41,002 nt of DNA from Corynebacterium faecale (GTDB lineage: Bacteria; Actinomycetota; Actinomycetes; Mycobacteriales; Mycobacteriaceae). The position numbers were made by a program, and so were the translations under genes. Location of the stretch: contig NZ_CP047206.1 of the NCBI RefSeq assembly GCF_030408735.1, forward strand, positions 1-41,002, given 5' to 3'. The notes below the pieces were generated by a model. That model ran no database searches. It was given only the letters and a program-made list of their open reading frames with translations, and was not told where the DNA came from. Positions 12,398 to 39,442 of the stretch are shown piece after piece (positions within the stretch are counted from its first letter, which is position 1; each line of letters begins with the position of its first letter).

Positions 12398-14218
12398 ATG
12401 GCACGAGTAGTACGTGAATCAGATCAAGGCACTCCGGCAGGTGCCGATGGAACCGCCTTTCTTGTCCTCGCGGGTGCTGCTGTGGCAGCTCTGGCCCTGG
12501 CGTGGTGTTCGATTAACGCTGGCCTGTGGGCTGCGGGAGAAGTCTTTATCCTTAATCCCGTTTCGGCGGTAATCGCGCTGGCGACAGGAAACGTCCCTTG
12601 GAACTGGGCATCATGGACAGCCCTCATCGTCGTAATCGTCATTATTGCGATCTTCATTTTCTTACTGGCCCCATCACCGAAAAGCCCCAGTGAAAAAGTC
12701 CACGCCCGAGCCTCAAAAATGATGGCGCGTCCCTCAGAACTGAACGGGCTGACCGGCAAAGTTGCTCAGGAAAAAGCCACCCGGCTCTATGAAGCAGCCG
12801 ATCCGAAAAATAACGCCAGCACCACCGGGTTGCTGGTGGGGCGCACAGTGGCGAAACCACACAGTGATATTTACATGTCCTGGGAGGATACGGCTGTAGT
12901 TCTAGCTGGTCAGCGCATGGGTAAAACGCAAGCCTATGTCACGACCTCGATTCTTAGTGCCCCTGGCCCTTGCGTGGCCACAGCCAATAAACGTGACGTG
13001 GTGGATATGACCCAGGCAGGGCGCAGCGAAAAGGGGCAGGTGTGGCTGTTTGATCTGCAAAATATCGCCACCGACACCTCGATGGACTGGTGGTGGAACC
13101 CGCTGCGCGAAGTCCACGACTACCGTGATGCACGCAAGCTGGCGAACTACTTTGCCTCGGCGGTGCGCTCTGGTGGTGGCGAAGCTCGAAAAGATCCCTA
13201 TTTTGATACCGCTGCCGAAGAACAGCTCTCCGCCTATATCTTTGCGGCCGCAAAAGCCGATGGGGATCTGCTGCACGTCCTGGAGTGGCTGAAAAACGAC
13301 ACCTCGGAAACACCGGTGAAGATTTTGCAGGCGGTGGGAGAAAATGCCGTGGCCCAAAGTGCCAACGCCAATATTCACATGAACCCCAAGCAGAAAGATG
13401 GCGTGTTCGCCATGGCCGCGAACTTTTTATCTGTGCTTAATGACCGTGGGTATGCGGCTGCGGTGACACCGGAGCACCGCGCACAGTTGAGTGTGACCAG
13501 CGAGGGTATCCATACTGATCGCGGGCTGATGGTGGGCCAGCAAAAACCGGAATTCCGGGTGATGGATTTCGCCAGTTCTAAAGACACTTTGTATGCCATG
13601 TCTGTAGAGGGGCCTGATTCCCCCTCTGCTTTGACTACCGCGCTGGTGGGCCAGGTGATCGACGCTGCTCAGAAAACAGCCCGGAAGATCCCTGGTGGTC
13701 GGCTAAAAACCCCGATGGTGTGTGTGCTGGATGAAGCTGCCAACGTCGTGCGCCTGGAGGAACTGCCCAGCTTGTACTCCTACTGCGGATCACAGGGAAT
13801 TTTGCTCATGACCTTCCTCCAGTCCCGTTCACAGGCATTTCGGGTGTGGGGCCAGGAGGGCTTCCGCGCCATGATGGAATCATCGAACCTCGTCATTTAC
13901 GGCGGGGGCATTAAGGATAAGGATTTCCTCGCAGAAATTTCGGCCATGATTGGCCAGATGAGGGTGGAACGTACCTCCACCTCGCGGGGATCACAGACTA
14001 ACTACTCGACTAGCTTTGAGCGTCAAGACATCATGGGTATTGACGATCTTCAAGCTCTGCCGTCCTCCCATGCCGTGATTATGAGTTCCGGCAACCGGCC
14101 CACGCTGGCCACCAAGGTGTTTTGGTCAATGTCGCCGTTTAAGGAGGCTGTGGAAGAGTCAATGAGACAAGCTAAAGCTCGTGAGATGGGCACTGACGTA
14201 GTAGCTAAGGAGAGCTAA
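12398..14218 (+). CDS. traG: Type IV coupling protein, VirD4/TraG family
   Basis: This 606-aa coupling ATPase recognises the relaxosome and feeds DNA-relaxase to the channel. Two N-terminal membrane helices (about 20-40 and 72-91) anchor it. Walker A is VVLAGQRMGKTQAYVTTSIL (about 167-186) and Walker B is MVCVLDEAANVVRLEELPSL (about 440-459), followed by YCGSQGILLMTFLQSRSQ, the TraG/TraD C-terminal motif. AGGAG lies before the ATG. Operon position after VirB4 and before the DUF4913-like gene fits actinobacterial transfer regions. No obvious sign of damage. Confidence 0.9.
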   Translation: MARVVRESDQGTPAGADGTAFLVLAGAAVAALALAWCSINAGLWAAGEVFILNPVSAVIALATGNVPWNWASWTALIVVIVIIAIFIFLLAPSPKSPSEKVHARASKMMARPSELNGLTGKVAQEKATRLYEAADPKNNASTTGLLVGRTVAKPHSDIYMSWEDTAVVLAGQRMGKTQAYVTTSILSAPGPCVATANKRDVVDMTQAGRSEKGQVWLFDLQNIATDTSMDWWWNPLREVHDYRDARKLANYFASAVRSGGGEARKDPYFDTAAEEQLSAYIFAAAKADGDLLHVLEWLKNDTSETPVKILQAVGENAVAQSANANIHMNPKQKDGVFAMAANFLSVLNDRGYAAAVTPEHRAQLSVTSEGIHTDRGLMVGQQKPEFRVMDFASSKDTLYAMSVEGPDSPSALTTALVGQVIDAAQKTARKIPGGRLKTPMVCVLDEAANVVRLEELPSLYSYCGSQGILLMTFLQSRSQAFRVWGQEGFRAMMESSNLVIYGGGIKDKDFLAEISAMIGQMRVERTSTSRGSQTNYSTSFERQDIMGIDDLQALPSSHAVIMSSGNRPTLATKVFWSMSPFKEAVEESMRQAKAREMGTDVVAKES

Positions 14219-15694: not shown

Positions 15695-18600
15695 TTAACG
15701 CTCGCGGCCGTAATCGGCCTCGGTAGTGTGCTGGCGGGGTGCTGCATCCGGCCGGCTGAACTGCTTTCCATCTTGCCCGCTGCCGCCTGCTCGTGCCTGG
15801 GCAATGCGGCTATCAAGATCGGTGATCTTATTGCGGATTAGTGCCGCCTGCTCGCGGGACTGATGCTGCGTGGAATCGGCAGATAGCAACGTCGGCCACA
15901 GGCTCCGATCAGGCACCTGGGACAACAGATTGTCGTGGCGACCCTTGGCCCTATCCAGGGCGCTTTGCGACTCACGGATCTGCTTCTGGGCCTGGGCGTG
16001 GCGGTTGGTGATGTCTTGTTTCTTCTTGGCAGATACGAACAATCCCTTCGGCTCGGGCGGTAGCTCGGCCGCATACTTCTTCGCTGCCTGCACCTGGCGG
16101 GACAGCACTTCAATATCGTGCAGGATTGTCGGTTCTGCCGCCTGCACCTGGCGGATACGCGCGCGGGTGTCCGCGTCGGATTCCACCGGATCGGCAGTGG
16201 CACTAATGACTGTGGTGAGCTGCGATTCCAATTCGCGGCGCTCTGCGATAAGCATGTCAATCTCCCTTTCTTTATTACTACGGTCAGGTCGAGCAAGGTT
16301 TACAGCGCTGCGCTCTAGATCAGTCAGGGCAAGCTGGAGACGGGCAGCAATCGAGTCAGGGGCAGTCGAAAGATCCGGCGCATTAAGCAACATCTGGGTG
16401 ATGTCGGTGGTTTCTGGGACAGATTTGTGCGCCTTTTCTGCCTGCTCTGCTCGCTGCTCGTAGCTGCCTACAGCGGTGGCCACGGTCAGTCCGGCATCAG
16501 CGGTACCCCACTTACTGCGCTCTGCTTCGGCTTCCTCAGCAGTAAGTGTGGAGCGTCGATCAAGCTCGTCACCGATGACAGACAACGCTGTTGTCAAGGT
16601 GGTGTGGTCAAAGCGTGCAGCCTGGAGTTGTTCATCAATGGACAGCGCTAACGTGCGTTCGGCGTGGATGGCCTGGGCAATATCTGTCCGGGCCTGGTGC
16701 GCCTGGAGCTGAATATCCCCCCACTGTTCGCGGCTGGGCAACTGCTTTTCCAGTGCTGCAATTTCTCGCTGAATCTGGAATTGACGTGAGCCATACGCAG
16801 TCGATGCCGTCTCATCCAGGTTCAGCACTGTGCTAATCAGCCTGTCCTGGTGGAGGGTGTGAGCATGAGAATTTTGCAGTCTCATATGCGGCTCGCCCTC
16901 GCGGAGACTGTCATGAATCGCCTCCAATTTTTCAATGATCGTGCTGCGGGCAGTAAGTCGCGCGCGCAAAATATCACGCTGCTCATTGAGCACTGGGGCT
17001 GACACATCGGCCACTCGATGCGGGGTCAGTCCCTCACCCATGGCCACCAATCTGTCGGCGTTCAGGCGACGCTGATCGACCAATGCGACACGATTGGTGC
17101 GCGCCCACTCCAGCAGTTCGGTGTCTACTCCTGGCCCCTGCGGTGGCAGGATACCCACGGGCATTGTGGCTTCCACGCGGGTCAATGCAGCGGTGAGATC
17201 ATCGACAAAGGTCTCAGAATCTCGGCACGCACTGATCTCAACATCCACATCAATGCCTGCATTCAGTGCGTTACTAACGGCCTGGGCAATGGAGTTAATG
17301 TCATCATCATCTAGCTCAGATATGACTTCTGGCGCGTGGATGTTGAGAAGATGGGTACTCCATGAACGGATCATTGTCTCGCGGATATGGTTGTAGGATT
17401 CCAGCTCCACAGCGCGATCTTCCTCGGCAGAAGAGTCCGACAGCATGGACAACGCTGCCTTATTATCACTGCCGCGATTCATGACCTGCTCCCACACAGC
17501 GCGCGCATTGGCGGGGGTTTTCTTATCGTGTTCGGCTTCTGGATCGACAGTTTGCTCAGTCACAATCCACGCCTTGTTGCTCATTTTTCCGCGCGAGAGA
17601 CCAACATAAGCAAGCTCCTTGGACTCGTGACCAGAGATGAGCATGTGGGCGGTATCAACGGTCATGCCCTGGGCGCGGTGGACAGTTGAGGCGTATCCCA
17701 GCTCGACATGGGCGCGTACATAGGCGGCTGGGAGGACAGCTCGGCCACCGTTTTCCTTATGGGAAACGTGCAGGTTTCCAGCGGCATCAGTGGCGTTAAC
17801 CGTCCACAGATCACCATTGAAAATTCGTCGTCCGTCTTCTTTACCACCCACCAGATTGATGGTGGAGTCATTTTTACGAGTCACAATCTGGTCGCCTGCG
17901 TGCAGCGTGGCCCCGTCTCGGGCGACGATTTCAGCTGTCAGCGGGGCCAAGAAACCATCATTCAAGCGACGCTGTTGTGCGGCAGTATTAAGTAGTGCCA
18001 CGTCCTTTCTGGTCGTGGCCATCATCAGGGAAGTCTTTCCATCGGCGGTTTCTACGGCCCATTCATTGAGGATTCCCTCACGCAACGCGGTGGAACTTCC
18101 CGTATTAATGCGGTCGTGTTTGTCGTAGAAGTCGTAAGAATCGTGCTCGCCCTCGCGGATTTTGAGTGACGCTTCGGCCTCACCCTCGGTCTTAAAACGC
18201 ACGACTTCTTCCAGGCTTGGCGCGTTGGTTTCCTGGGCGAGAAGCTCCAACATGCCGCCAGATTCAACAGCTGACAGCTGAGATGGGTCACCAATCATGC
18301 GGACAACTGCACCCTGACGTTGCGCGATTTCGTTGAGTTGGTAGAGGTCTCGGGTTGACGCCATGCCGGCTTCATCGACAATAATCAGCGTTCCCCGGGT
18401 GATTCCGGTGTCCAATCCGTGCTTATCTCGGGTCAGGATCGACGCGATTGTCTGGCCAGCAATACCTAGATCATTGCCCAAAACATTCGCTGCTGCGGCA
18501 GATGGGCCAAGCCCAATGACATTGTTTCCCATGGCTTGCCAGGCATCGGAGACCACCTTCATGGAGGTGGTTTTTCCGGCTCCTGCGGGGCCAACAGCGA

Positions 18601-20356
18601 CAGAAAGCTGCGCTCCAGATCCCAGTAACCAGTGCGCCATGGTGCGCTGTCCCTCGTTAAGTGGGAACCCATTTTCCTTTTCTACAGCGGAAATTACCGC
18701 GTCAATATGACGGCGAGTAGCGACAAACGGGGTCGCAATTCGGGTGGCATCAAGCAACTGCTGCTCGCGGAAAATGGTTTCCGGCGAGGTGAACTTATCA
18801 CTCATGGACTGGTGGAAAAGTGATTTTCCCTTGGTGGTAGTCAGCCCAGAGACGTTCTCAAACTGCTGTCCTGTGAGCCTAATGGATCGTCCATCACGGA
18901 CTTCCTGCATGACTGATTCGATCATTGCGCGCTGCTCGTCGGTGGTATTAAAGCGCATAACAGCCAGTGTTTCCGTAGCTGCGGAATAGATATTGGTGGC
19001 GTTCCACTGCGAACGTCGGCGCTCTAAAAGCTCCAAAGTACGATCTGCTGCGGTGTTCACATCGAGCACTTCCGTGTGCTCTTTTTCCTCATTAACCAGC
19101 CCAGTAACCAGTGCGGATACGTCAGAAGTACCCAGAACTTTCTCGGCTCGCTGCGCCCAAAGTGCCCGCATTTCCGTGAGCGACTGCTGATCTTGTTTCA
19201 CTCCGCGCGTCTCTAGAGTCGCCTGCTGAGCCAACTTAATCTGCGTTTGCCAGCTCGGTTCGCGCTTATTCCTGGCACGAAAATCATCGACAAGTTCTTC
19301 TAAACGGCGCTCAATATCGTCTCGACGGGAGAACTCTTTGAGCAAAGAGTCGGGAACTCCAGCCACTTCGTAGACCGGGGATTTATTCTCACCGTGTGAA
19401 ACAGCACGGAAAGATAGGCCCTTATTCCGTAGCTTATTAGTCAAAGTTTGGTTGTAAAGATTCGATGCAGCAACGTTCATCTGGAACATTGCCCGTCCAT
19501 CTAGCGACCGCCATTTACCATCGTCAGGGCAGTAAATCTTATTGGCTACAGCGCAGTGAGTGTGAAGATTAGGATCACCAGCTCGGTTATCAAAGTGGTC
19601 AAAACGCGCAATTGTTAAGCCCTCGCCCTCCACTCGGATCACTCCGCCTGCGCCTTTACGGGAGAAAGACACGTTACTTTCCACCCATTCAAGGGTCTCA
19701 GAGACCGCCTCCCGGTGGGCATTTTCGATGTCTTTTTGTAGATCTTCGCTGCCAATTCCCCACAACGTTGTCACCGATTTCTGGGGAGTAAACACCAGAT
19801 CGAAACCAGCTACAGCGTCGCCTTGTGCATCTCTAGTGGCCTTAACCCAGCCCATAATCTTCTTAGCATCGACGTTTTTCTCCTCTGGGAAACGCTGCTT
19901 AAAGTGCTGGGATGCGATTTCTAGAGTGATCTCCTTGTACTTTCTATCGGAAATTGTGCCACCGTTTTTGGCTCGTGAAACGCGCACTGCCTCGTCAATC
20001 TGGTCAAGCATTGGGTCGGCTTCTTTGATGTTGTCGGCGAACAAACGGCCAATCTGGGACTTCTTTAACGCCTTTCGAGCGGTCGCTCCATCCTTAATGG
20101 ATGCGGCGATAATCTCGTCTGCATTCGGGTGCCTACCCTCTCCAAAAAGCGCCAGCATCTGCGCTTCGGTGACAGTTCCGTTGATTTCTAAGCGCTTGAT
20201 TCCTGCCCCAGTCCACTCTCCTGGAGGCGTACCTTTCTCCGATGCGTAGTAGTTGGAAAGGGACTGTCCGGGCAGTCGTGGGCGGTCTCCGGTGGCTACA
20301 GAATCAGTCAGATAGGTGTAACCGGTGCCCGCAAAGAGCGTATGAAGTGTCATCAT
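15695..20356 (-). CDS. traA: MobF-type conjugative relaxase-helicase (TraA/TrwC-like)
   Basis: This bifunctional enzyme of 1553 aa nicks the plasmid at oriT, becomes covalently attached to the strand and unwinds it. The TrwC domain (about 1-320) begins FAGTGYTYLTDSVA, with candidate catalytic tyrosines in NYY (about 36-37) and the HUH metal site H254, H265, H267 (FDHFDN...NLHTHCAVAN). The RecD/TraI-like helicase has Walker A VGPAGAGKTT (588-597) and Walker B IIVDEAG (658-664). Two RecD-like motor regions and a long coiled C-terminal region follow. An upstream ATG would add 13 residues; 20356 is chosen because GGGAGG lies ten bases before it and the protein then starts MMTLHTLFAGTGYTYL, as in relatives. 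The inverted repeats upstream are the likely nic region. Confidence 0.92.
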   Translation of the reverse strand: MMTLHTLFAGTGYTYLTDSVATGDRPRLPGQSLSNYYASEKGTPPGEWTGAGIKRLEINGTVTEAQMLALFGEGRHPNADEIIAASIKDGATARKALKKSQIGRLFADNIKEADPMLDQIDEAVRVSRAKNGGTISDRKYKEITLEIASQHFKQRFPEEKNVDAKKIMGWVKATRDAQGDAVAGFDLVFTPQKSVTTLWGIGSEDLQKDIENAHREAVSETLEWVESNVSFSRKGAGGVIRVEGEGLTIARFDHFDNRAGDPNLHTHCAVANKIYCPDDGKWRSLDGRAMFQMNVAASNLYNQTLTNKLRNKGLSFRAVSHGENKSPVYEVAGVPDSLLKEFSRRDDIERRLEELVDDFRARNKREPSWQTQIKLAQQATLETRGVKQDQQSLTEMRALWAQRAEKVLGTSDVSALVTGLVNEEKEHTEVLDVNTAADRTLELLERRRSQWNATNIYSAATETLAVMRFNTTDEQRAMIESVMQEVRDGRSIRLTGQQFENVSGLTTTKGKSLFHQSMSDKFTSPETIFREQQLLDATRIATPFVATRRHIDAVISAVEKENGFPLNEGQRTMAHWLLGSGAQLSVAVGPAGAGKTTSMKVVSDAWQAMGNNVIGLGPSAAAANVLGNDLGIAGQTIASILTRDKHGLDTGITRGTLIIVDEAGMASTRDLYQLNEIAQRQGAVVRMIGDPSQLSAVESGGMLELLAQETNAPSLEEVVRFKTEGEAEASLKIREGEHDSYDFYDKHDRINTGSSTALREGILNEWAVETADGKTSLMMATTRKDVALLNTAAQQRRLNDGFLAPLTAEIVARDGATLHAGDQIVTRKNDSTINLVGGKEDGRRIFNGDLWTVNATDAAGNLHVSHKENGGRAVLPAAYVRAHVELGYASTVHRAQGMTVDTAHMLISGHESKELAYVGLSRGKMSNKAWIVTEQTVDPEAEHDKKTPANARAVWEQVMNRGSDNKAALSMLSDSSAEEDRAVELESYNHIRETMIRSWSTHLLNIHAPEVISELDDDDINSIAQAVSNALNAGIDVDVEISACRDSETFVDDLTAALTRVEATMPVGILPPQGPGVDTELLEWARTNRVALVDQRRLNADRLVAMGEGLTPHRVADVSAPVLNEQRDILRARLTARSTIIEKLEAIHDSLREGEPHMRLQNSHAHTLHQDRLISTVLNLDETASTAYGSRQFQIQREIAALEKQLPSREQWGDIQLQAHQARTDIAQAIHAERTLALSIDEQLQAARFDHTTLTTALSVIGDELDRRSTLTAEEAEAERSKWGTADAGLTVATAVGSYEQRAEQAEKAHKSVPETTDITQMLLNAPDLSTAPDSIAARLQLALTDLERSAVNLARPDRSNKEREIDMLIAERRELESQLTTVISATADPVESDADTRARIRQVQAAEPTILHDIEVLSRQVQAAKKYAAELPPEPKGLFVSAKKKQDITNRHAQAQKQIRESQSALDRAKGRHDNLLSQVPDRSLWPTLLSADSTQHQSREQAALIRNKITDLDSRIAQARAGGSGQDGKQFSRPDAAPRQHTTEADYGRER

Positions 20357-20454
20357 AACGGCCGCACCTCCCAACTTTCCGCACCATTTTTGCACGCTAA
20401 AATGTCTCTACCTGGCATTCTACACTTTAGTGCATGAGGTGTGTGGTTCTTTTT

Positions 20455-26314: not shown

Positions 26315-27157
26315 GGTGCTGTTGCAAAGTTGGGGCAGTAGGAAGAGCGACGTGAAATAATCACAGCCATGGGTATCTTCTCCGGTCGTCATTTCCCCCG
26401 TGACATCATTCTGTGGGCAGTGCGGTGGTACTGCCGCTACGGGGTGAGCTACCGCGATCTGGAGGAAATGATGACCGAGCGGGGCGTGCCGGTCGATCAC
26501 ACCACGATCTACCGCTGGGTCCAGAAATACGCCCCTGAGCTGGACAAGCAAACACGGTGGTACCGGCAGGTACCTGACTGGCAGGCCAGTTCCTGGCGGG
26601 TGGATGAGACCTATATCCGGGTCGGCGGCAGGTGGTGCTACCTCTATCGGGCGATCACCGCCGGTGGCCAGACCCTGGACTTTTACCTCTCTCCGAAGCG
26701 GAACGTGGCCGCAGCGAAGCGTTTCCTGGCCAAGGCCCTCAGATCCAATGCGTCAGCCGGGTATCCCAGAGTGATCAACACCGATAAAGCACCCTCCCTA
26801 GCCAGGGCAATCGCCGAGTTGAAGTCAGAGGGAATCTGCCCGCCAACAGTGGAACACCGGCAGGTGAAATACCTCAACAACATCCTGGAAGGCGACCATG
26901 GTCGGCTGAAGCGGATCCTCGGGCCGAAAGGCGCGTTTAAGAACCGGACATCTGCATATCGGACGTTGAAAGGGATGGAGGCGATGCACTCATTGCGGAA
27001 AGGGCAAGGCACGATGTTTGCCTACGGGCAACCGAACCCGGACGCGGTGATCGTCAACCGGGTCTTCGAGACGGCCTGAGAACGCCCACACGCAGCGGCC
27101 ATCAGGGAATGAGAAACTGAGTCTTCGCTGCTCTCCGCCCAACTTTGCAACAGCACC
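26315..27157. mobile_element. IS6-family insertion sequence (IS1628-like)
   Basis: Intact 843-bp element. Left end GGTGCTGTTGCAAAGTTGGG is matched exactly inverted at the right end (27138-27157). Perfect 8-bp target duplications CATCGTTC flank it. It holds one DDE transposase gene and resembles IS1628 of corynebacterial plasmids; the family is certain, the exact name is not. It sits between the controller gene and the restriction-modification gene. Removing it and one duplication restores a 104-bp spacer. Confidence 0.93.
26369..27079 (+). CDS. tnp: IS6-family transposase
   Basis: This 236-aa DDE transposase has catalytic residues D79 (WRVDETYIRV), D139 (VINTDKAPS) and E174 (NNILEGDHGRLK), an N-terminal helix-turn-helix (GVSYRDLEEMMTERGVPVDHTTIYRW) and the family ending (GMEAMHSLRKGQ). 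Full length and undamaged, within matching inverted repeats. IS6 elements move by replicative transposition and form cointegrates, and their ends can supply outward promoters to neighbours. The start at 26369 follows weak upstream signals, as usual in the family. Confidence 0.93.
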   Translation: MGIFSGRHFPRDIILWAVRWYCRYGVSYRDLEEMMTERGVPVDHTTIYRWVQKYAPELDKQTRWYRQVPDWQASSWRVDETYIRVGGRWCYLYRAITAGGQTLDFYLSPKRNVAAAKRFLAKALRSNASAGYPRVINTDKAPSLARAIAELKSEGICPPTVEHRQVKYLNNILEGDHGRLKRILGPKGAFKNRTSAYRTLKGMEAMHSLRKGQGTMFAYGQPNPDAVIVNRVFETA

Positions 27158-30164: not shown

Positions 30165-33100
30165 TTAGTCCAGGGTATGTCCCCTATCCGGGGATTGCCC
30201 TGGCGTAGGCGGTGGAGGTTTTTGCGCCCCACCCTGCCCCTGGCCGGCATTGAGCTGGGTCTCCAGGTCGTACTTAAAGATCACCGGTGTCTGCGCTACC
30301 CACTCCTCGCCAGCGCGAAGATTTTTCTTCTCAATCGGCCGTGACTTCGGATGATGGAACCGGTCAGTCTCGCGCATGTATTTAGTCGGGTTCAGCTCCA
30401 GGGTGTATCCCGGTGACCGACCTTTCGACTGCATTCGCTGGGCATATTCAGCTCGACGCTGCTTCTCGGCCGCAGAGTTATCAAACTTGGAAAGTTCATC
30501 ACGGATCTGCGCGGCTTCCTTGCGCTTTTCATCCAATTCCTGCTGCTGCGGGAACTCAGGTGTAGAGACTTTGCCCTCCAGCCGATCAATCACCTCGGTG
30601 TGCTCACTAATGCGCTGCTCCAGCTCAGCAATTCTCAGCGGCACCGCCTTGGTCGCGTTTTCCATGGAGGTCAACACACCGCGTTGCTTTGGAACGATCT
30701 CGTCTACATCAATGCCACCGTGAATCATGCGAGGATCTGCAAGGTACGCAGGAACTGGATTTGCCAGCGCACCAACGGAACTGGTGATGAGTACTCCCCC
30801 ATCCGTCACTGACCAACGGGCGTTGAATTTGATACCTCCGATTTCACCAATGGGCGTTGACGTCATATCCCGATCCTCCACCACCTCACGCAGGCGGTTG
30901 AATAGGGCGTTAACGGCTTCCCCACGGTCTGAAAACGTGCGGTTGTCAATCGTCCAGCGTCGATCCTCCTTGGCCTGGTCATTCCACGCCTGGGCAGCGG
31001 GTTGAAGCTTCTGAATCCTGCTCAGTGTTGATTTATCAATGGGTAGATCACGCTGGGCTTTACGCAGTGTTACGACATTTGAGGTGGCCACGGCGTGATA
31101 CTCGGCGGCAGCTGTTTCCAGCTTGGCGACTTCGCGCTCCACTTCGACCTGGCGAATGAAGTTCGGATTACCTGTGGCAATGGCCTTATTGTGTGCCAGT
31201 GCGTCCGATCCGTCATTTTCCAGCGGCTCCATCTGGCGGATGGAACGATCTGCTTTGAGGAATTGGTTAATGAACTTGTCCTTGCGGGCAACCACACCCC
31301 ATGAGTAAGCGTCGTAGGTGCCCTTGGCAACGTAGTTATAGATCGACACCTCGGGGTTTTGGTTGCCCTGGCGGATAATTCGGCCCTCCTGTTGCTGGAG
31401 GTCGGCAGGTCGCCAGGGCACATCAACATGGTGTAGCGCAATTGCTCGGGCCTGGATGTTGGCACCGGTGGCCAGGCGGGGGGTGTTGGCTATCAGCACA
31501 TCGACCTTTCCGTTGTTGCAGTCATCAAATAGCTGTAGGCGGCGATCTTCCCAGTCGTGGATGTACCGGATGCGGTCAGTGTCCATGCCACCTGCCACCA
31601 GATCATCTCGGATCGCGTCGTAGAGACTGAATCGTCCCTGCTTATTGGGCACACCCATATCGCAGAAGATGATCTGTAGGGCACCCTTATTAGGAGATTC
31701 TTCTCCAGTAAGGGTCAGATAGGTGTTGTCCTTGTTTTCCTCCCACTCGCGTAACACCGTCTCGGCCAGGGCGTGCACACGCCCGATACCTGGGGTGTTA
31801 TCCAGACCAGCCAGCCGGGGATCAATAGTGGCGGCTTTGCCGTCGTTCACGAGTTTCAGTGGATTATCAATGCGGGGATCTTCGGGGAGATTGGCTTCTC
31901 GCCAGGGCAGATCAGCAATTAGGTCTTTGACCTCTTGGCTGACATCAAACTCCACGATGATGTTTTCTCCCGTGCGTACTGTCGGCAGCTTCGCCGGGAT
32001 TTGATCGCGGTCAACGGTGTCCATAAAGGGTGTGGACATCTGGGCCAGCTCAGCGACATTGGCATAGGAGGAAATGCGTTTGCGCTCTCGCATGACACCA
32101 CCGGCCGTGAAATCAATGTCAGATTCTTGGCTGGTGAAGTTCGCGCCCCAGGCGTTGATCCCTTCGACTCCGGCCTCTTTGAGGATGTCAGGGCGTAGGT
32201 AGTGCTGGAGTACCCACAGCTCAGCGAGGTTATTAGCAATCGGTGTACCAGTGGCAAAGGTGACTGTGGGGTAATCCTCACGACCATGGCGTTCACGCAG
32301 CCACCCGATTTTCATATCCATATCGGTAGCTCGGTCTGATCCAGCACAGGCAAGATCGGCCATGCTCGAGGGGCGGGCAAGGTTTTTATAGGCGTGGGCC
32401 TCATCGACAATGAGGTAGTCGCAACCGGTCTGGTCAAAGGTGATGCCATCGTTTTTGTTGATCTTGGTCAGCGTCTTTTCCATCTTGGTTTCCAGACGGG
32501 CAATCGCTGTCTCAATCTCTCGTACCGCATTTTTATGGTCAGCCTCGGAGGATTTGAGCTTTTCTAGATCCTGACGGTGACGGTTGAGCTGGTCATTCAT
32601 GTACTCGGTATAGGCTTCCGGGGACATGCTGGCGGCTTTAAAAGCGTTGTCAGACACCACCACCAGATCCCAGTCGTTTTGTGCTGATTGGGCCAGTACC
32701 ATCTGCCGTGCATCTTTTTTCTTCGGTGCTGATTCTGATTCGCTGCCCACCAGGATGTTGGCCCCGGGATACCACTGCTTTGCTTCTCGACCGATCTGAT
32801 CGACCAGGTGAGACGGCACCACCAGCCACGGCTGGTTAGCAATACCCAGGCGCTTTAGCTCCATGGCACCCATAATCATAGATCCGGTTTTACCTGCACC
32901 CACGACGTGATTAAGCAGCACAGACGGTTCATTGACCATGCGCTCTACCGCGTCAAGCTGATACGGGTACGGGTTAAAGTTCTCCCCCAGCCCCGGCATG
33001 GTGCGCTGGGCACCGTCATATTCAGGTGCCACCACATTGTTGAAGCGCTCGTTGTAGGCGGTGACCAGCTGGTCATAGCGCTCGGGATCTTCGGTAACCC

Positions 33101-36100
33101 AGGTGGCAAACCGGCTCTGGATGGCTTCTGATTTTTGGCCGGCTGCGCGTGTAGCTGCGGGGTGCAGTCGTTGGCGTTCAGGATCAAACCCGAGGGCTTC
33201 CTTGGCCTCGGCGGACATATTGAGCACCGGAGCCTTCATATTCATAGTGTCATTAAGTGCCTGGCTTGCTGGGTAGACCAGTGAGGAATATCCCCGGTGT
33301 GCGACACCATGGTGGGAGAATTTCTCCATCTTCGCATGGGTGAAGTTGAACGGGCCCTGGGCATTGGCAGCCAGCAGCCCCCAGGCCATGTCCGCGTCCA
33401 TTTTCCCAGGCCAGTAGTTCGGTACCTCCACTGACCACTTATCGGCGGCATATATCACGCTGATGTCCTCGCGGTGAGAGTCAGGGATATTTAGCAGGTC
33501 ACCAATGAAATCACGGTAATGGTGTTCTGGAATCCACGTTGCACCCAATGACATGGTGATGCCGTGCTCGATACGCGGTGGTAGTGCCTCCGTAAGTGCT
33601 TGAACGTTGGGCACCAGGCGCTCGTCCTGGGCGGCGGCTTCCTCGGCGTGTTTGAGCTTGGTACGCACCATGCCTGACAGGTAGCGCTGACCGGGAATCC
33701 AGGTATCTGGCTCATCGGGGTCACGAAACGCGATTTTATCGGCCACGAGCTCTTTAGCCACTCGGTCAAGATCATCAGTGCCCATCAGCTCGGCAAAGGT
33801 CTCGACCGTCAAAGGTCGGCCGCTGTTTTTCGCCACGGTCACCGCGTCGGTGAGGTTATCGACGCTGACTACCTCGATTTCCTGGCGCAGCGGATTAGTC
33901 GTAAACAGCGGCGATTTCCTGGCGGTCTGGGTTTCCTCGTTAAAGTTTTCCAGGGCATAGACCGCGTTCATATAGGGGTCATTAGCCAGGGCACCGCTGA
34001 GATGTTCACGCCACGGGGTGAGATCTTGCTCTACGCGGGCAGCTTGCTCGCGTAATTCCTCGGGCACCCCCTCTGGCAGCTCGCCCTCATAGGCACGATC
34101 TCCGACCGCGTTATCTTGGCGCCACTCCTGCTCGAGCTTTTTGTACTGCTTTTCCACCTGATCGGCGGTTTTCGCGCGCGGCTTTTTGTACTCAAAGCGG
34201 TTAATGAAGCCGTATGTCTCGGTGTAGGCATCATATTGGCTGGTCAGTGCTTCTTGCAGGGCCGCGATCTGGGCTGTGTCCTCGTCTTTACACGCGGTGA
34301 GAAGTGCCTGGGTGGTGTTACGGATGTCGATAAGATCCGTCCACTCCTGGGCAAGTTCTTTACGTTTGGGTTTGACCGGCATCCATGCCGGGCCGTTCTC
34401 GGTGGGTTTGAGCTGCTCGAAAGTAATGGTGTTGGCGGTATCGGTGTAGCGAATGGTGCCCAAGACGGTGTGCATCGAGTTTTGGGCATCGGTGATAAGT
34501 CCTGAGACATCCAGCTCAGCGATAGCCTCCACGGGGCGTTCCTGCGGGCCGTAGCCATACCCAGTGGCAGCAGCAGTAGCCAGATCACGGTCTAATACGT
34601 CGCGGATCTGTTCTCCGAGAGTCGTGGTGGCGGCATCAAGACGAACATCCAGATCAGGGCCATATGCTGTGGAGACCTTGCGGTAGTCACCAAGAATGTT
34701 GTCAGGGTTATCGGCAAAAAAGGCGTTGATTTTCTTGGTGTGCCCCTCCACGGTTAATTCGTGGTGGCCACGAAATAACTCGGTGGTGGCGCTAGGCTCC
34801 CGACCGGGTTCGCGGACACGGAACAGCAAAATGTCGGTGCCGACCTCGGTGTTGGCGTGGGTGGCGAATGCACCGTGTCGACCACCGGGTAACCGGACAC
34901 CGGTAATGAAATCGGCCTGGTCGGTGAGCACCCGCTGGACTTTTCCGCCCTGGCTGGCGGAATCAGCGGTGTGCTGGGAGGTAATCATGGCCACGTAACC
35001 ACCGGGGGCGGTCAGGGCGATGGATTTGGCGAAGAAGTAGTTATGCAGTGAGAGATCGTCGCGGTTATAGGCGGGATCAACAGGGGTGATATTGGCAAAG
35101 GGGACATTGCCAATTGCCAGATTAAAGGCACCATCAGGTGCCTGGGTGTCCTGGAACCGCTCATTGCGGATCTGGTGCTGTGGGTGCAGCGCATTAGCAA
35201 TAAGTGCTGAGGTTGCGTCCTGCTCGACACCGACCACATGGGTGTTGTCCGGGGCGCTGGCGAAAAACCCGCCGATACCGCACCCTGGCTCCAGGACTCT
35301 GCCGCCGTCAAAACCAGCTGTTTCCAATGCCGACCACATCGCGTCGACAATTTCTGGTGGGGTGAAATACGAGGTCAGAACAGTTCTGCGGGCAGAATTG
35401 TATTCCTCCTCGGTGAGATAGGATCGCAACTCTTCTCGGGGACGGGCAAAACGATCATCGTTGTCGTTGAAAACAGCTGATAATCCACCCCAGCCACGGT
35501 ATTGACTAAGCACATACTGCTCATCAGGCGTTGCAGGTCGCTGATCTTCTCGCAGCATTAGGGATACGGCGAGGGCATCGAGGTTTGCCTCTACTTGGTA
35601 GGCTTCCCAGCTTTGGCTTCCTGGTCGCGGATTGCTTGGTCGATTTTCTTCTCGAATGGGGCTTTCAGCTTGCTGTCCCAATCCGCTGGATACGGCCGGT
35701 TGAGGTGCTTCATCCGCTCGATCAGTGCCGCCGCGTACATATACCACGTCGGGTTCTTGTCCGGCCACAGGTCGTGCAGGATCTCCCACGTCGCTGAGCT
35801 GATCTCCACGTCCTCGGGGGTCTCCTGCCACATCCCGGGAGTTTGAATCGTTCGCAGATGCGGGGAGTCCTCCACCTCGTTGAGCTGGTTCTGGATCACC
35901 TGCTCGGTCAGCTCGGCCAGATACTCCTGCCGGATCTGCTGCTCCGCGCTCTGATGTGCTGCGTCCACGATCTGCCCCCAGGTCAATCCGTCCGGCTGGC
36001 GATTGTGGTGTGTGATCCACTGCGTCCGCAGCTCGTGCATCACGGTCTGCTTTCGATCGCTGAATGCGTCCTGGATCTGCTGCTCGTACTGCTGGATCTG

Positions 36101-36239
36101 CTCCGGGGTTGTCTGGGGATTGACCGCCATTAGGGCCGTCTTGATCTCGTCGTAACCGATCATTATCGCTTTCCTCCGGTGGGGTGGTTAGAAAATCAAA
36201 TAGGGAAGGTTGGTGAGGATTAAGGACCTTTTTCGCCAC
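30165..36239 (-). CDS. Giant DNA methylase/SNF2-like helicase (N12-class, DarB-like)
   Basis: This 2024-aa protein probably guards incoming plasmid DNA from restriction. Order: MAKKVLNPHQPSLFDFL with a possible beta-clamp motif (QPSLFDF, 10-16); a low-complexity Arg/Asp/Gly/Pro linker (about 20-220); an adenine-methylase-like domain with LEPGCGIGG (about 316) and NVPF (about 378) instead of NPPF/Y; a long middle region; SNF2-type motor with NHVVGAGKTGSM (about 1113), IVDEAHAY (about 1278) and QQEGRIIRQGNQ (about 1621); then a coiled coil and a tail. GTG start with GGAG seven bases upstream. Related proteins (COG4646 type, phage P1 DarB) occur on actinobacterial conjugative plasmids. The linker overlaps the out-of-frame gene at 35591-36163. 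Confidence 0.85.
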   Translation of the reverse strand: MAKKVLNPHQPSLFDFLTTPPEESDNDRLRRDQDGPNGGQSPDNPGADPAVRAADPGRIQRSKADRDARAADAVDHTPQSPAGRIDLGADRGRSTSERGAADPAGVSGRADRAGDPEPAQRGGGLPASANDSNSRDVAGDPRGRGDQLSDVGDPARPVAGQEPDVVYVRGGTDRADEAPQPAVSSGLGQQAESPIREENRPSNPRPGSQSWEAYQVEANLDALAVSLMLREDQRPATPDEQYVLSQYRGWGGLSAVFNDNDDRFARPREELRSYLTEEEYNSARRTVLTSYFTPPEIVDAMWSALETAGFDGGRVLEPGCGIGGFFASAPDNTHVVGVEQDATSALIANALHPQHQIRNERFQDTQAPDGAFNLAIGNVPFANITPVDPAYNRDDLSLHNYFFAKSIALTAPGGYVAMITSQHTADSASQGGKVQRVLTDQADFITGVRLPGGRHGAFATHANTEVGTDILLFRVREPGREPSATTELFRGHHELTVEGHTKKINAFFADNPDNILGDYRKVSTAYGPDLDVRLDAATTTLGEQIRDVLDRDLATAAATGYGYGPQERPVEAIAELDVSGLITDAQNSMHTVLGTIRYTDTANTITFEQLKPTENGPAWMPVKPKRKELAQEWTDLIDIRNTTQALLTACKDEDTAQIAALQEALTSQYDAYTETYGFINRFEYKKPRAKTADQVEKQYKKLEQEWRQDNAVGDRAYEGELPEGVPEELREQAARVEQDLTPWREHLSGALANDPYMNAVYALENFNEETQTARKSPLFTTNPLRQEIEVVSVDNLTDAVTVAKNSGRPLTVETFAELMGTDDLDRVAKELVADKIAFRDPDEPDTWIPGQRYLSGMVRTKLKHAEEAAAQDERLVPNVQALTEALPPRIEHGITMSLGATWIPEHHYRDFIGDLLNIPDSHREDISVIYAADKWSVEVPNYWPGKMDADMAWGLLAANAQGPFNFTHAKMEKFSHHGVAHRGYSSLVYPASQALNDTMNMKAPVLNMSAEAKEALGFDPERQRLHPAATRAAGQKSEAIQSRFATWVTEDPERYDQLVTAYNERFNNVVAPEYDGAQRTMPGLGENFNPYPYQLDAVERMVNEPSVLLNHVVGAGKTGSMIMGAMELKRLGIANQPWLVVPSHLVDQIGREAKQWYPGANILVGSESESAPKKKDARQMVLAQSAQNDWDLVVVSDNAFKAASMSPEAYTEYMNDQLNRHRQDLEKLKSSEADHKNAVREIETAIARLETKMEKTLTKINKNDGITFDQTGCDYLIVDEAHAYKNLARPSSMADLACAGSDRATDMDMKIGWLRERHGREDYPTVTFATGTPIANNLAELWVLQHYLRPDILKEAGVEGINAWGANFTSQESDIDFTAGGVMRERKRISSYANVAELAQMSTPFMDTVDRDQIPAKLPTVRTGENIIVEFDVSQEVKDLIADLPWREANLPEDPRIDNPLKLVNDGKAATIDPRLAGLDNTPGIGRVHALAETVLREWEENKDNTYLTLTGEESPNKGALQIIFCDMGVPNKQGRFSLYDAIRDDLVAGGMDTDRIRYIHDWEDRRLQLFDDCNNGKVDVLIANTPRLATGANIQARAIALHHVDVPWRPADLQQQEGRIIRQGNQNPEVSIYNYVAKGTYDAYSWGVVARKDKFINQFLKADRSIRQMEPLENDGSDALAHNKAIATGNPNFIRQVEVEREVAKLETAAAEYHAVATSNVVTLRKAQRDLPIDKSTLSRIQKLQPAAQAWNDQAKEDRRWTIDNRTFSDRGEAVNALFNRLREVVEDRDMTSTPIGEIGGIKFNARWSVTDGGVLITSSVGALANPVPAYLADPRMIHGGIDVDEIVPKQRGVLTSMENATKAVPLRIAELEQRISEHTEVIDRLEGKVSTPEFPQQQELDEKRKEAAQIRDELSKFDNSAAEKQRRAEYAQRMQSKGRSPGYTLELNPTKYMRETDRFHHPKSRPIEKKNLRAGEEWVAQTPVIFKYDLETQLNAGQGQGGAQKPPPPTPGQSPDRGHTLD
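35591..36163 (-). CDS. 190-aa gene nested out of frame in the methylase-helicase gene
   Basis: An ordinary-looking soluble protein: MIGYDEIKTALMAVNPQTTP, a long helical Gln/Glu-rich stretch (EQIQQYEQQIQDAF), LTWGQIVDAAHQSAEQQIRQEYLAELTEQVIQNQ, then ATWEILHDLWPDKNPTWYMYAAALIERM. CCGGAGGAAAG stands just before its ATG. Codons end mostly in G or C (ATC, CAG, GAG, CTG), as in the rest of the plasmid, whereas the large gene's reading of the same DNA is Arg/Asp/Gly-rich and disordered. It lies wholly inside the large gene, same strand, frame +1. Either both are made (overprinting) or the large gene's true start is downstream. Family unknown. Confidence 0.75.
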   Translation of the reverse strand: MIGYDEIKTALMAVNPQTTPEQIQQYEQQIQDAFSDRKQTVMHELRTQWITHHNRQPDGLTWGQIVDAAHQSAEQQIRQEYLAELTEQVIQNQLNEVEDSPHLRTIQTPGMWQETPEDVEISSATWEILHDLWPDKNPTWYMYAAALIERMKHLNRPYPADWDSKLKAPFEKKIDQAIRDQEAKAGKPTK

Positions 36240-36323
36240 TGGCTCGCTCCGTTGTGCCTGGGGATTGTATAGATAGCCCTATCCTAAAGTGCTTATGAGA
36301 GTAATTACTTATAGAAACGAAAC

Positions 36324-36361
36324 AGGCCACCAAAAAAGCAAATAAGTGCTTTTGGTGGCCT
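36324..36361 (-). terminator. Terminator of partition operon
   Basis: AGGCCACCAAAAAAGCA (36324-36340) pairs with TGCTTTTGGTGGCCT (36347-36361) with a two-A bulge. It follows the stop of the leftward RHH gene by about ten bases and is followed leftward by a T-containing tract (GTTTCGTTTC). Confidence 0.7.
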
Positions 36362-36370
36362 ATTAAGTTA

Positions 36371-36667
36371 CTAGCGTCCTTGCGCGTGATCCCATGCTCG
36401 GATGAGTAGCTCAGTCATTGTCCTGCCGGTCTCAAATGACTGCCGCCTTAGCTCCTGGTGCATAGCGAAAGGAATGTTGATTGTCATCCGGTGCTGCGGT
36501 TGTTTGACCACAGGCTCGATAGGCTGGGGGATGTTCGTAGGCTGGTGATCGTTTCCCAACGCCTCTGATGACAGGGTTTCTTTGGCGCTACTCGGAGGAT
36601 TATCCTGCACCCGCATAGCGTTGCGGGTTAGGTCGCTGTGCGTGAAACCCTTGGCCTTATCAGTCAT
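36371..36667 (-). CDS. parB: Ribbon-helix-helix partition protein (ParB analogue)
   Basis: This 98-aa centromere-binding candidate has a disordered, Pro/Gln-rich N-terminal half. A C-terminal ribbon-helix-helix domain follows (about 58-98): HRMTINIPFAMHQELRRQSFETGRTMTELLIRAWDHA, with strand RMTINIPF and two helices. Its ATG overlaps the parA stop by four bases, the usual type Ib parA-RHH arrangement. The N-terminal tail would stimulate ParA, while the RHH dimer binds sites upstream of parA and represses the operon. Symbol given by analogy; it is not a ParB of the KorB/HTH type. Confidence 0.82.
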   Translation of the reverse strand: MTDKAKGFTHSDLTRNAMRVQDNPPSSAKETLSSEALGNDHQPTNIPQPIEPVVKQPQHRMTINIPFAMHQELRRQSFETGRTMTELLIRAWDHAQGR

Positions 36668-37266
36668 TTCATAACCTCCAAAATTTGATCGAGTACATGC
36701 TCATACCCCAACATCTGCCGTGCGTCATTGGCAGGCCACTGCCCTCGCATCTGGCGGAAGAAATCACGGTGGGGAATGTACTGGGGGAATACAGCCACCT
36801 CATAGCTTTCGAGCGCTTCGCGCACTTCTCGGTACAACACAGTCTGGGCGTTGACGGCAGTGAGAAGAACCGCTGCCGGCTTGCCATCGGGAATCGCTGC
36901 GCGTGTTTTCCACACACGCTCCATATCAATAGTGGAGGGCAGCGTCGGAATCACCACGAAATCAGCCACTTCGATAGCGCTGTCCACGGTTGAATAGTTA
37001 CCTGGGGGCGTGTCAATAAAGACAAGGCCGTCCCGTTGCGCTGCGCGCTGCATGGTGCCCTGGTTGGCTATGACCAGTTCGCAGTTGTCAAGGCGCGTTT
37101 CTGGGTTTTCCTGAGCATCGTGAAACCACGAGCTTGCAGTGCCCTGCGGATCAGAATCAATGATTGTGACCTTATGGCCTGCATAGTGGGCGGCAGCGGC
37201 GAGAAACATCGTGGAGCATGTCTTGCCTACGCCACCTTTCGTATTGACAAAACTGACAACTGCCAT
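36664..37266 (-). CDS. parA: ParA partition ATPase
   Basis: This 200-aa Walker-type ATPase moves plasmid copies apart before division. The deviant Walker A NTKGGVGKT (8-16) has the signature first lysine K10 and K15. The A' and B regions are VTIIDSDPQGTASSW and LVFIDTPPG. The length and the lack of an N-terminal helix-turn-helix put it in the small type Ib group. The upstream DNA (37320-37423) has repeated short elements and a palindrome. Cotranscribed with the RHH partner. Confidence 0.9.
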   Translation of the reverse strand: MAVVSFVNTKGGVGKTCSTMFLAAAAHYAGHKVTIIDSDPQGTASSWFHDAQENPETRLDNCELVIANQGTMQRAAQRDGLVFIDTPPGNYSTVDSAIEVADFVVIPTLPSTIDMERVWKTRAAIPDGKPAAVLLTAVNAQTVLYREVREALESYEVAVFPQYIPHRDFFRQMRGQWPANDARQMLGYEHVLDQILEVMK

Positions 37267-37837: not shown

Positions 37838-39442
37838 GTGAAAAACAAAGGTGCCATTGCAGTAGTGGCGATTGTGGCCCTGGTACTCGGCCTAGTGATG
37901 TTTGTGGCGCTAATGTTCACCGACGAGGACATGGTGTGTGAACCGCTCGACGGTACCGGAACAGGCGTGCCTGCCGGATCGTATGCCATGCCGGAATCGG
38001 TGCCCCCCGCGTCTTTGACCTCTGGTTTCGGCCCCCGGTGGGGGTCAATGCACGAGGGCGCAGATATAGCAGGTGGAGCAGGAACCCCGATCTACGCCTT
38101 TGCCAATGGTGTGGTGGTCAATGCCGGGCCTGCCGCTGGTTTTGGAAATTGGATCGTTATTGACCATATGAGTGCTGAGGGGGAGAAATTCTCCACCGTC
38201 TACGGGCACATGTTCGCAGAAGATCTCATGGTCTCTGTGGGCCAGACTGTGCGTGCAGGACAGCAGATTGCCCGTGAGGGCTACGCAGGCAGTGTTCAAC
38301 CCCCTGGGCCTGGCGGCTCACACCTGCACTTTGAAGTCCACCCTGGTGGCTACCGTAATCCCGCCGATCCCACCCCGTGGCTCGATCAAGCCGTCAACGT
38401 GGGGGCCGCAGGCGATACCACCGTGACTGTCCCGGACGGAAACACCGACTTTGGCGCTGGTGACGAACTGCCTCCACTGCCGCCTAGCGTGGGGTCTGAG
38501 GACAATTATCAGATTGACTCCATCCGGCTATCTCGCGCGATTCACCAGCAATTCCCAGAGATTAAAACCATCGGTGGGTGGCGACCAGTCGATGCCTTCC
38601 CCGATCACCCCAGTGGCCGTGCTGTCGATGTCATGATCCCCAATTGGGAAACCAGCGCAGGCCAGGAATTAGGCACACGGGTAAAAGACTGGATCTGGGC
38701 CAACCGGGAGGCGTTCAATGTTGAGTACATGATCTGGCAGCAGACCTATATCCCCAGCTCGGGCACGGCAAATGTCATGGAAGATCGTGGCAGCCCCACC
38801 CAAAACCACTACGATCACGTGCACATCACCACCGTGGGCGGGGGATACCCAGACGGCAGCACACCCATTACTGCCCCTACTGGCCTGAGTTCAGGTGGCG
38901 GCAGCTACTCGGTCAACCCGGATTGTAACGGCGTGGGCGGAGTCGGCACTGACGCAGAACTACTGGAGGGTGTCATCCCAGAAGAATTCTCCCGGTGGTT
39001 TGCTCGCGGTGGCCAGGTCTGTGAGGGCGTGGACGCGCCACTGCTGGCCGCACAGATGGGCCAGGAGAGCAACTTCACGGCCAATCAGGTATCCGGTGCT
39101 GGTGCCATGGGCTTTTCCCAGTTCATGCCGGGGACGTGGGCAAAATACGGCTATAAGGTAGATGAAAACGGTAATAAGGTCGGCGCTGCGGGATCAGGTG
39201 ATCCCAACAACATCGGTGATGCGGTGATGGCACAGGCAGATTACATGTGTGAGCTGCAAACGCTTCTGGCTCCTGCACTAGCATCAGGCCAGATTCAGGG
39301 TGACCTGACCTCCCTGACACTGGCTGCATACAACGCCGGGCCTGGTGCGGTACTCGATCATGGCGGCATCCCTCCCTATGCCGAGACACAAGCTTATGTC
39401 CCCAAGATTCTCGAAGCTCGGGAATCCTACGCAAAGAGGTAA
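37838..39442 (+). CDS. Three-domain cell-wall hydrolase of the transfer system
   Basis: This 534-aa membrane-anchored enzyme is predicted to open peptidoglycan for the mating channel. One N-terminal membrane helix (about 4-27) is followed by three domains. M23/LytM peptidase (about 50-190) has H72, D76 and H162-L-H164. A second zinc-type domain of the ARB_07466 kind (about 222-340) has HPSGRAVDVM and YDHVHIT. Then a lytic transglycosylase (about 375-530) has catalytic Glu410 (QMGQESNF), GAGAMGFSQFMPGTW and LAAYNAGPGAV. GTG start with GGAG seven bases upstream. Three wall activities in one chain is unusual. It is in a separate transcription unit from the main tra operon. Confidence 0.88.
   Translation: MKNKGAIAVVAIVALVLGLVMFVALMFTDEDMVCEPLDGTGTGVPAGSYAMPESVPPASLTSGFGPRWGSMHEGADIAGGAGTPIYAFANGVVVNAGPAAGFGNWIVIDHMSAEGEKFSTVYGHMFAEDLMVSVGQTVRAGQQIAREGYAGSVQPPGPGGSHLHFEVHPGGYRNPADPTPWLDQAVNVGAAGDTTVTVPDGNTDFGAGDELPPLPPSVGSEDNYQIDSIRLSRAIHQQFPEIKTIGGWRPVDAFPDHPSGRAVDVMIPNWETSAGQELGTRVKDWIWANREAFNVEYMIWQQTYIPSSGTANVMEDRGSPTQNHYDHVHITTVGGGYPDGSTPITAPTGLSSGGGSYSVNPDCNGVGGVGTDAELLEGVIPEEFSRWFARGGQVCEGVDAPLLAAQMGQESNFTANQVSGAGAMGFSQFMPGTWAKYGYKVDENGNKVGAAGSGDPNNIGDAVMAQADYMCELQTLLAPALASGQIQGDLTSLTLAAYNAGPGAVLDHGGIPPYAETQAYVPKILEARESYAKR

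Follow-up and report, generated by a model that had tools for sequence, protein, structure and literature searches.

In phage lambda, the smaller gene of the Rz/Rz1 pair is nested out of frame within the larger. The spanin products of this nested pair act together (PMC5295617). In Thermus, the RNase P protein gene rnpA encloses the ribosomal protein L34 gene rpmH; the two starts, separated by 4 nucleotides, use a common Shine-Dalgarno site, and both genes are reported to have been shown to be expressed (PMC9841429). Well-evidenced long overlapping gene pairs of bacteria are few (PMC9841429, PMC9927249). Among enzymes that protect mobile DNA, DarB shields the DNA of phage P1 from type I restriction, a role that is also presumed for its relatives (PMC5512222), while the action of the plasmid adenine methylases M.EcoGIX and M.BceJIII depends on the mode of replication, possibly in a complex with DNA polymerase I, and M.EcoGIX aids plasmid establishment by way of a restriction block (PMC7736820). 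The locus described here lies in a stretch of 41,002 nucleotides of Corynebacterium faecale (NZ_CP047206.1, positions 1 to 41,002; hereafter the window), in which a gene for a DarB-like methylase-helicase encloses a second gene in another frame. The 573 bases occupied by both are open in two frames and quite probably give rise to two proteins: one predicted to be folded and helical, and one whose predicted disordered arm would tether a likely DarB-like enzyme to the replication clamp.

The large open reading frame (ORF) occupies positions 30165-36239 of the minus strand (2024 amino acids); its GTG start at 36239 is preceded, 7 nucleotides 5', by a ribosome-binding-like GGAG (36247..36250). Entirely within it, at a phase offset of one base, lies the nested ORF (35591-36163, minus strand, 190 amino acids), whose ATG follows a GGAGG ribosome-binding-like site (36173..36177) at a distance of 9 nucleotides. 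The initial annotation, made from the sequence, had claimed two long same-strand frames over the same 573 bases, each with a GGAG or GGAGG of its own, and a clamp-like QPSLFDF motif of the large frame ahead of the overlap; every one of these elements was found, with QPSLF at residues 10-14. As in rnpA-rpmH of Thermus, which is the nearest bacterial case found, the gene is fully nested on the same strand, in another frame, near the 5' end of the longer gene. Unlike that arrangement, the two starts are not near-coincident (the nested ATG is 76 nucleotides downstream of the GTG) and have separate Shine-Dalgarno-like sites, the nested gene has 190 codons and a mobile element as its likely carrier, and both products are predictions from sequence. 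The likeness to lambda Rz/Rz1 is that of a nested pair with two products that act, or here would act, together; the proteins and their function are unrelated.

The large protein matches the profile phrog_10089, 'DarB-like antirestriction', over residues 44-1930 (E 0, 1027.9 bits), and two Pfam families over their cut-offs, SNF2-rel_dom (PF00176; 33.4 bits, cut-off 24.9) and ResIII (PF04851; 29.8 bits, cut-off 22.5). Its predicted architecture is DarB-like, with an LPD36-type domain, an adenine methylase and an SNF2 helicase. The LPD36-type helical domain and the adenine-methylase region cover 34803..35609 (approximately residues 211-479), and the SNF2-type helicase region covers 31365..32978 (approximately residues 1088-1625), both on the minus strand. 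The LPD36 domain was defined as N-terminal and composed of four helices, with a GXGU motif between helices 2 and 3 (PMC5512222); the AlphaFold2 model has helices at residues 211-232, 238-245, 254-257 and 262-274, and GWGG stands at residues 249-252. The adenine-methylase motif NPP(Y/F) reads NVPF in 9 of 9 aligned sequences, so that N, P and F are retained and position two deviates. As in the DarB-type methylase-helicase dyads of polyvalent proteins (phage P1), an LPD36-type domain, an adenine methylase and an SNF2 helicase are joined in one chain on a likely conjugative element; unlike those dyads, the locus has an overprinted linker, QxxLF peptides and a nested partner gene, which are unmentioned in the accessible text of PMC5512222. 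The initial annotation had suggested an anti-restriction enzyme as the product of the large frame; the DarB-like profile match lends support to this, and a DNA-protecting activity is likely.

The two products of the shared bases differ strongly in their predicted structure. The nested protein was modelled by AlphaFold2 with a mean predicted local distance difference test score (pLDDT) of 94.4, entirely as helices and with a long hairpin (residues 20-53 and 59-97). Read in the methylase frame, the same bases (35591..36163, minus strand) give a linker of A/G/D/R/P composition, approximately residues 26-216 of the large protein, with block means of pLDDT of 36-53 for residues 21-210 and a first helix only at residue 197, directly ahead of the LPD36-type domain. 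No Pfam, NCBIfam or PHROG family matched the nested protein over the cut-off, and no Foldseek match to its model was found in the PDB at E<=0.001; it appears to represent a new all-helical family. Nested proteins were acidic in 44 of 44 loci, with isoelectric points of 4.21-5.45 (median 4.54). In 13 disjoint pairs of loci, a set that replaced an earlier one of 15 pairs containing identical copies, the identity of the nested proteins exceeded that of the linkers every time; the ratio of non-synonymous to synonymous divergence (dN/dS) of the nested gene was 0.07 for L005/L004 and 0.40 for L032/L035. The simplest reading of sequences and models is that a disordered arm is written over a folded protein, and the overprinting of a folded, better-conserved protein by a disordered linker is supported. 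That the large protein might be the sole product and the nested ORF spurious is suggested by a protein search that gave just 3 matches at E<=0.001, the window's own protein among them. Conservation across families, the high pLDDT, the higher identity in all pairs, the intact orphan copies described below and the listing of the nested product as a protein in its own right in C. atrinae, in C. kefirresidentii and on two Rhodococcus plasmids make this extremely unlikely.

Relatives were first gathered by blastn of plasmids (20 records) and by a nested-protein search in 242 Corynebacterium-genus genomes, 21 of which, including the window's own, gave matches. Plasmids of C. atrinae, C. diphtheriae, C. 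striatum and C. kefirresidentii share a large frame that begins 5' of the nested gene with the sequence MARRK/MARKK...NQIS[LI]FD and remains open across it into the methylase. The methylase is intact at 6 of the 20 Corynebacterium loci that were fetched, and all 6 show the same-phase overlap; the others comprise one broken methylase (L040), 11 loci with none on that strand and two in which the nested gene was not re-found. A larger set of 111 methylase loci was composed of 80 genome-contig loci (the best 80 of 526 confirmed), 23 viral-contig loci and 8 further loci, the window included. It was compared with a nested-gene profile of 11 sequences, seven of which (the window's and six more) come from loci in the set, whose matches are given by construction. 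At E<=1e-5, 61 of the 111 loci carry a nested-gene homologue, near-identical copies included: 53 of the 80 genome-contig loci, none of the 23 viral-contig loci and all 8 further ones, seven of which had contributed to the profile. In 60 of these 61 the methylase frame overlaps the nested gene in the same phase, exact starts being unsettled in some (start codons were picked by closeness to the profile start); the sole exception, L109, has a broken methylase frame. Among the hosts with the overlap are Corynebacterium, Rhodococcus, Mycolicibacterium, Mycobacterium, Williamsia, Dietzia, Tsukamurella, Nocardia, Kitasatospora and a metagenome-assembled genome (MAG) of Pseudonocardia. At none of the 61 loci does the open frame of an intact methylase begin downstream of the nested gene, and the nested frame is conserved in the relatives.

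Twenty-four of the 27 remaining genome-contig loci were examined, and each carries a same-phase ORF of 103-309 amino acids; one of these more distant loci belongs to a MAG labelled Deltaproteobacteria. A profile made from 13 of the 24 matches the main nested family at E 1.4e-8, and the Corynebacterium nested profile matches the Rhodococcus and Mycolicibacterium nested proteins at E 2.7e-10. In a second draw, a nested-protein alignment was compared with 394 genomes of the class, which gave 14 places in 13 genomes, of which 12 were fetched and the window's own and one seen before were omitted. A methylase was present at 9 of the 12 places, with an open frame overlapping the nested ORF in all 9; the fetched stretch contained no methylase at the other 3. 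L167 showed one stop within the profile-aligned stretch. Rhodococcus versions (L006, L007, L111 and L119) have a very large methylase, with an open frame of more than 3200 amino acids in L006, L111 and L119, and the annotated methylase start of L006 and L007 is 3' of the nested gene.

The public annotations examined give one frame only over the overlapped bases. For C. atrinae and C. kefirresidentii, the methylase is annotated in RefSeq from a start 3' of the nested gene, which itself is entered as a hypothetical protein. Starts of this kind (L002 at 9534 and L005 at 7834) would be expected if a shorter methylase simply followed the nested gene and the open frame upstream were a by-product of GC-rich codon use; in agreement with this, 56 of 360 control stretches of methylase cores were stop-free in the same relative frame, and openness alone is weak evidence in GC-rich genomes. 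Stop avoidance was judged against a null in which the nested protein and its codon counts were fixed and synonymous codons were shuffled (2000 shuffles for 44 non-redundant loci, with L109 excluded for its broken methylase frame). Inside the nested gene the methylase frame had 0 stops in the 44 loci, which are related and hence not independent, as opposed to 116.0 +/- 8.1 expected and 87 in the lowest shuffle; the third frame had 349 stops, with 337.7 +/- 8.3 expected. Codons ending in T were absent before AA, AG or GA, where they would create a stop (0 of 1788, compared with 502 of 4885 at other places). The window by itself had 0 large-frame stops with 3.94 expected (synonymous shuffle, p 0.006), T-ending codons at 0 of 37 stop-creating places compared with 14 of 90 elsewhere, and 10 stops in the third frame of the same strand, and 45 control stretches of 190 codons, taken from five methylase cores of Corynebacterium (one of them the window's), included none that was stop-free in the corresponding frame. 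For 20 of the 24 more distant loci, the methylase frame had 0 stops against 38.4 +/- 4.9 expected, a zero that is partly by construction since starts were picked within an open methylase frame, and the conclusion does not rest on it. With codon use held fixed, the missing stops and T-ending codons, together with the recurrent MAR...Qxx[LIM]F start 5' of the nested gene and the loss of the open frame in orphans L041 and L036, render a mere codon by-product very unlikely.

The constant phase and the short distance from the nested stop to the conserved methylase region would also suit programmed frameshifting, with translation starting in the nested gene and shifting to the methylase frame near its end. 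A frameshift would need neither a methylase frame that is open over the entire nested gene nor a start and a motif of its own 5' of the nested ATG, and both are present, which leaves this mechanism hardly probable.

Loci without the methylase offer a built-in control, in that the methylase frame has decayed in some of them and the nested gene has been retained. Intact orphan nested genes, with no methylase in the fetched stretch, occur in the Corynebacterium loci L031, L036, L038, L041 and L047. With the nested ORF intact, the former methylase frame has 20 stops in L041 (19.0 expected) and 7 in L036 (7.4 expected). The nested protein is still conserved in L031, L036, L038 and L041: dN/dS is 0.20-0.27 for L036, and the proteins of L031 and L041 are 66% identical, with a non-synonymous difference of 0.19 as opposed to a synonymous one of 0.78. 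The pooled test included 9 of the 11 loci without methylase, leaving out L039 (internal stops) and L042 (front part absent).

The edges of the overlap carry a further recurrent feature. QxxLF is the general consensus for bacterial clamp-binding motifs (PMC12309361), and the window has such a peptide, QPSLF, at 36198..36212 on the minus strand. In the methylase frame of the 44 loci, a Qxx[LIM]F peptide stands directly before the nested gene in 33 and directly after it in 28, that is, at both edges in 20 and at one edge at least in 41; shuffled flanks gave at most 3, and the interior of the overlap none. In L008, L060, L067, L104 and others, a second QxxLF directly 3' of the nested stop is followed, in the methylase frame, by a recurring PTDPRxIDPGGxPLP-like stretch, a combination not seen at that place in the Corynebacterium loci. 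No QxxLF was found in the N-terminal frame of the Rhodococcus loci L006, L007, L111 and L119.

Other observations weigh against dual coding with a clamp-bound arm, or limit it. The pattern Qxx[LIM]F was defined after inspection of the data; the window has the upstream motif only; the pattern was not found at either edge in Rhodococcus L006, L007 and L111, nor in L176 and L177; and binding of the large-protein peptide to the clamp DnaN is predicted from a motif match. L008 alone gave p 0.40 in the stop test. In the second draw, the nested match crosses a stop in L172 and L176, and the large frame of L177 has just 943 amino acids. Among the orphans, L031 and L038 have zero methylase-frame stops within the gene, which would fit a recent loss of the methylase, and the nine pooled orphans have 44 stops, fewer than the null of 62.8 +/- 5.3, so that the decay of the frame is partial. 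Finally, at the 4-fold sites of the nested frame, divergence was below that of the methylase core in 10 of the 13 pairs (a median ratio of 0.77, p 0.033), and therefore the residues of the linker appear to be weakly kept at best; for Corynebacterium pairs the ratio was mixed (0.54 to 2.59, and 1.91 for the pair used).

Taken together, the fixed phase in 60 of 61 loci, the absence of methylase-frame stops and the conservation of the nested frame support the dual coding that the initial annotation had proposed. Both frames are under selection, the nested one judging by its dN/dS and conservation and the large one by stop avoidance and its motif, and the locus reads as an old, selected gene-in-gene pair. 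Concerning its history, relatives with a short N-terminus and without the nested gene are from viral contigs. In two of these without the overlap (L131 and L140), a Qxx[LIM]F-type motif is found near the methylase, which suggests that the peptide is ancestral and that the frame was later extended upstream over the nested gene. In a quick tree, 84 rows with the overlap fell on one branch of 88 rows (support of 98 in the Shimodaira-Hasegawa-like approximate likelihood ratio test), together with four rows labelled 'none', among which the label of L069 is an error (it has the same weak overlap), and L129 and L148 show weak ORFs in the same phase; the tree omits four loci, long branches were flagged and the result is provisional. 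Of the two frames the nested one is likely the older, with a single upstream extension of the methylase frame across it, early in the mainly actinobacterial branch. With regard to the idea that the linker was born over an older gene, the overprinting is supported, and the greater age of the nested gene is likely rather than proven, no intact non-overlapping ancestor having been found.

A mechanism may be envisaged in which a single mRNA offers ribosomes two independent starts, GTG 36239 and ATG 36163. Through its N-terminal QxxLF peptide the large protein would be anchored to the replication clamp DnaN, and its long flexible arm would give the LPD36-methylase-SNF2 body access to freshly synthesised plasmid DNA once the plasmid has entered. 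The methylase could then track complementary-strand synthesis on the incoming plasmid and methylate the DNA ahead of cutting by host restriction enzymes. Such an enzyme would resemble M.EcoGIX and M.BceJIII as a plasmid methylase with replication-linked action; it would differ in that their partner appears to be DNA polymerase I and not the clamp, and in that the abstract describes neither a helicase nor a nested gene (PMC7736820). The acidic helical nested protein would be a partner made together with the methylase, most likely a regulator or chaperone. In a broader proposal, which in our judgement is evenly balanced, the DarB-like antirestriction enzymes across Actinomycetota have, between two clamp-binding peptides, an arm overprinted on an older gene; a single transcript would then yield a replication-coupled, DNA-protecting methylase and, from inside the arm, an acidic helical partner.

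The main rival for the function of the nested protein accepts dual coding and has this protein act alone, as an acidic DNA mimic against restriction enzymes, presumably in the manner of ArdA or Ocr. Acidity in all 44 loci and the persistence of some nested genes as orphans are what this role would predict. Helical hairpins of ordinary acidity are common, however, and the model has no fold match among solved proteins at E<=0.001 (although a missing match does not exclude the role), so that a stand-alone mimic seems unlikely, and a partner of the methylase remains the preferred function.

The coding content of the window gives the setting of the pair. A MobF/TrwC relaxase (15695..20395, minus strand), which marks a mobile element, a TraG/VirD4-type coupling protein (12398..14218, plus strand), which gives a conjugation context, and a ParA-family partition ATPase (36664..37266, minus strand), 5' of the large gene, together make a conjugative element or plasmid likely. 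A full-length MmeI-type restriction-methylase with 5 of 5 MmeI domains (27222-30068, plus strand) is convergent with the DarB-like gene, which places a restriction system and a likely DNA-protection enzyme side by side on the same element; directly ahead of the MmeI gene is an IS240/IS6-type transposase (DDE_Tnp_IS240; 26369-27079, plus strand). A peptidoglycan hydrolase with M23 and SLT domains (37838-39442, plus strand) is possibly a cell-wall enzyme of conjugation. Between the ORF at 36371-36667 and the large gene, an inverted repeat, GGCCACCAAAA...TTTTGGTGGCC, was spotted by eye at 36326-36360 and could be a terminator for the upstream genes.

Nested same-strand genes are already known as a kind, and it is the nested family, the overprinted arm and the clamp-like edges that appear to be new; no description of the three was found in the literature searched. 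The annotated plasmid records that were examined (L002, L005, L006 and L007) truncate the N-termini of large antirestriction enzymes. The locus is a phase-fixed and phylogenetically broad example of a long overlapping pair, and its QxxLF peptides lead to a direct prediction about the way in which conjugative elements link the protection of their DNA with replication in recipient cells. Should the broader proposal on the DarB-like enzymes be true, few long same-strand gene-in-gene pairs known from bacteria would be as widely conserved.

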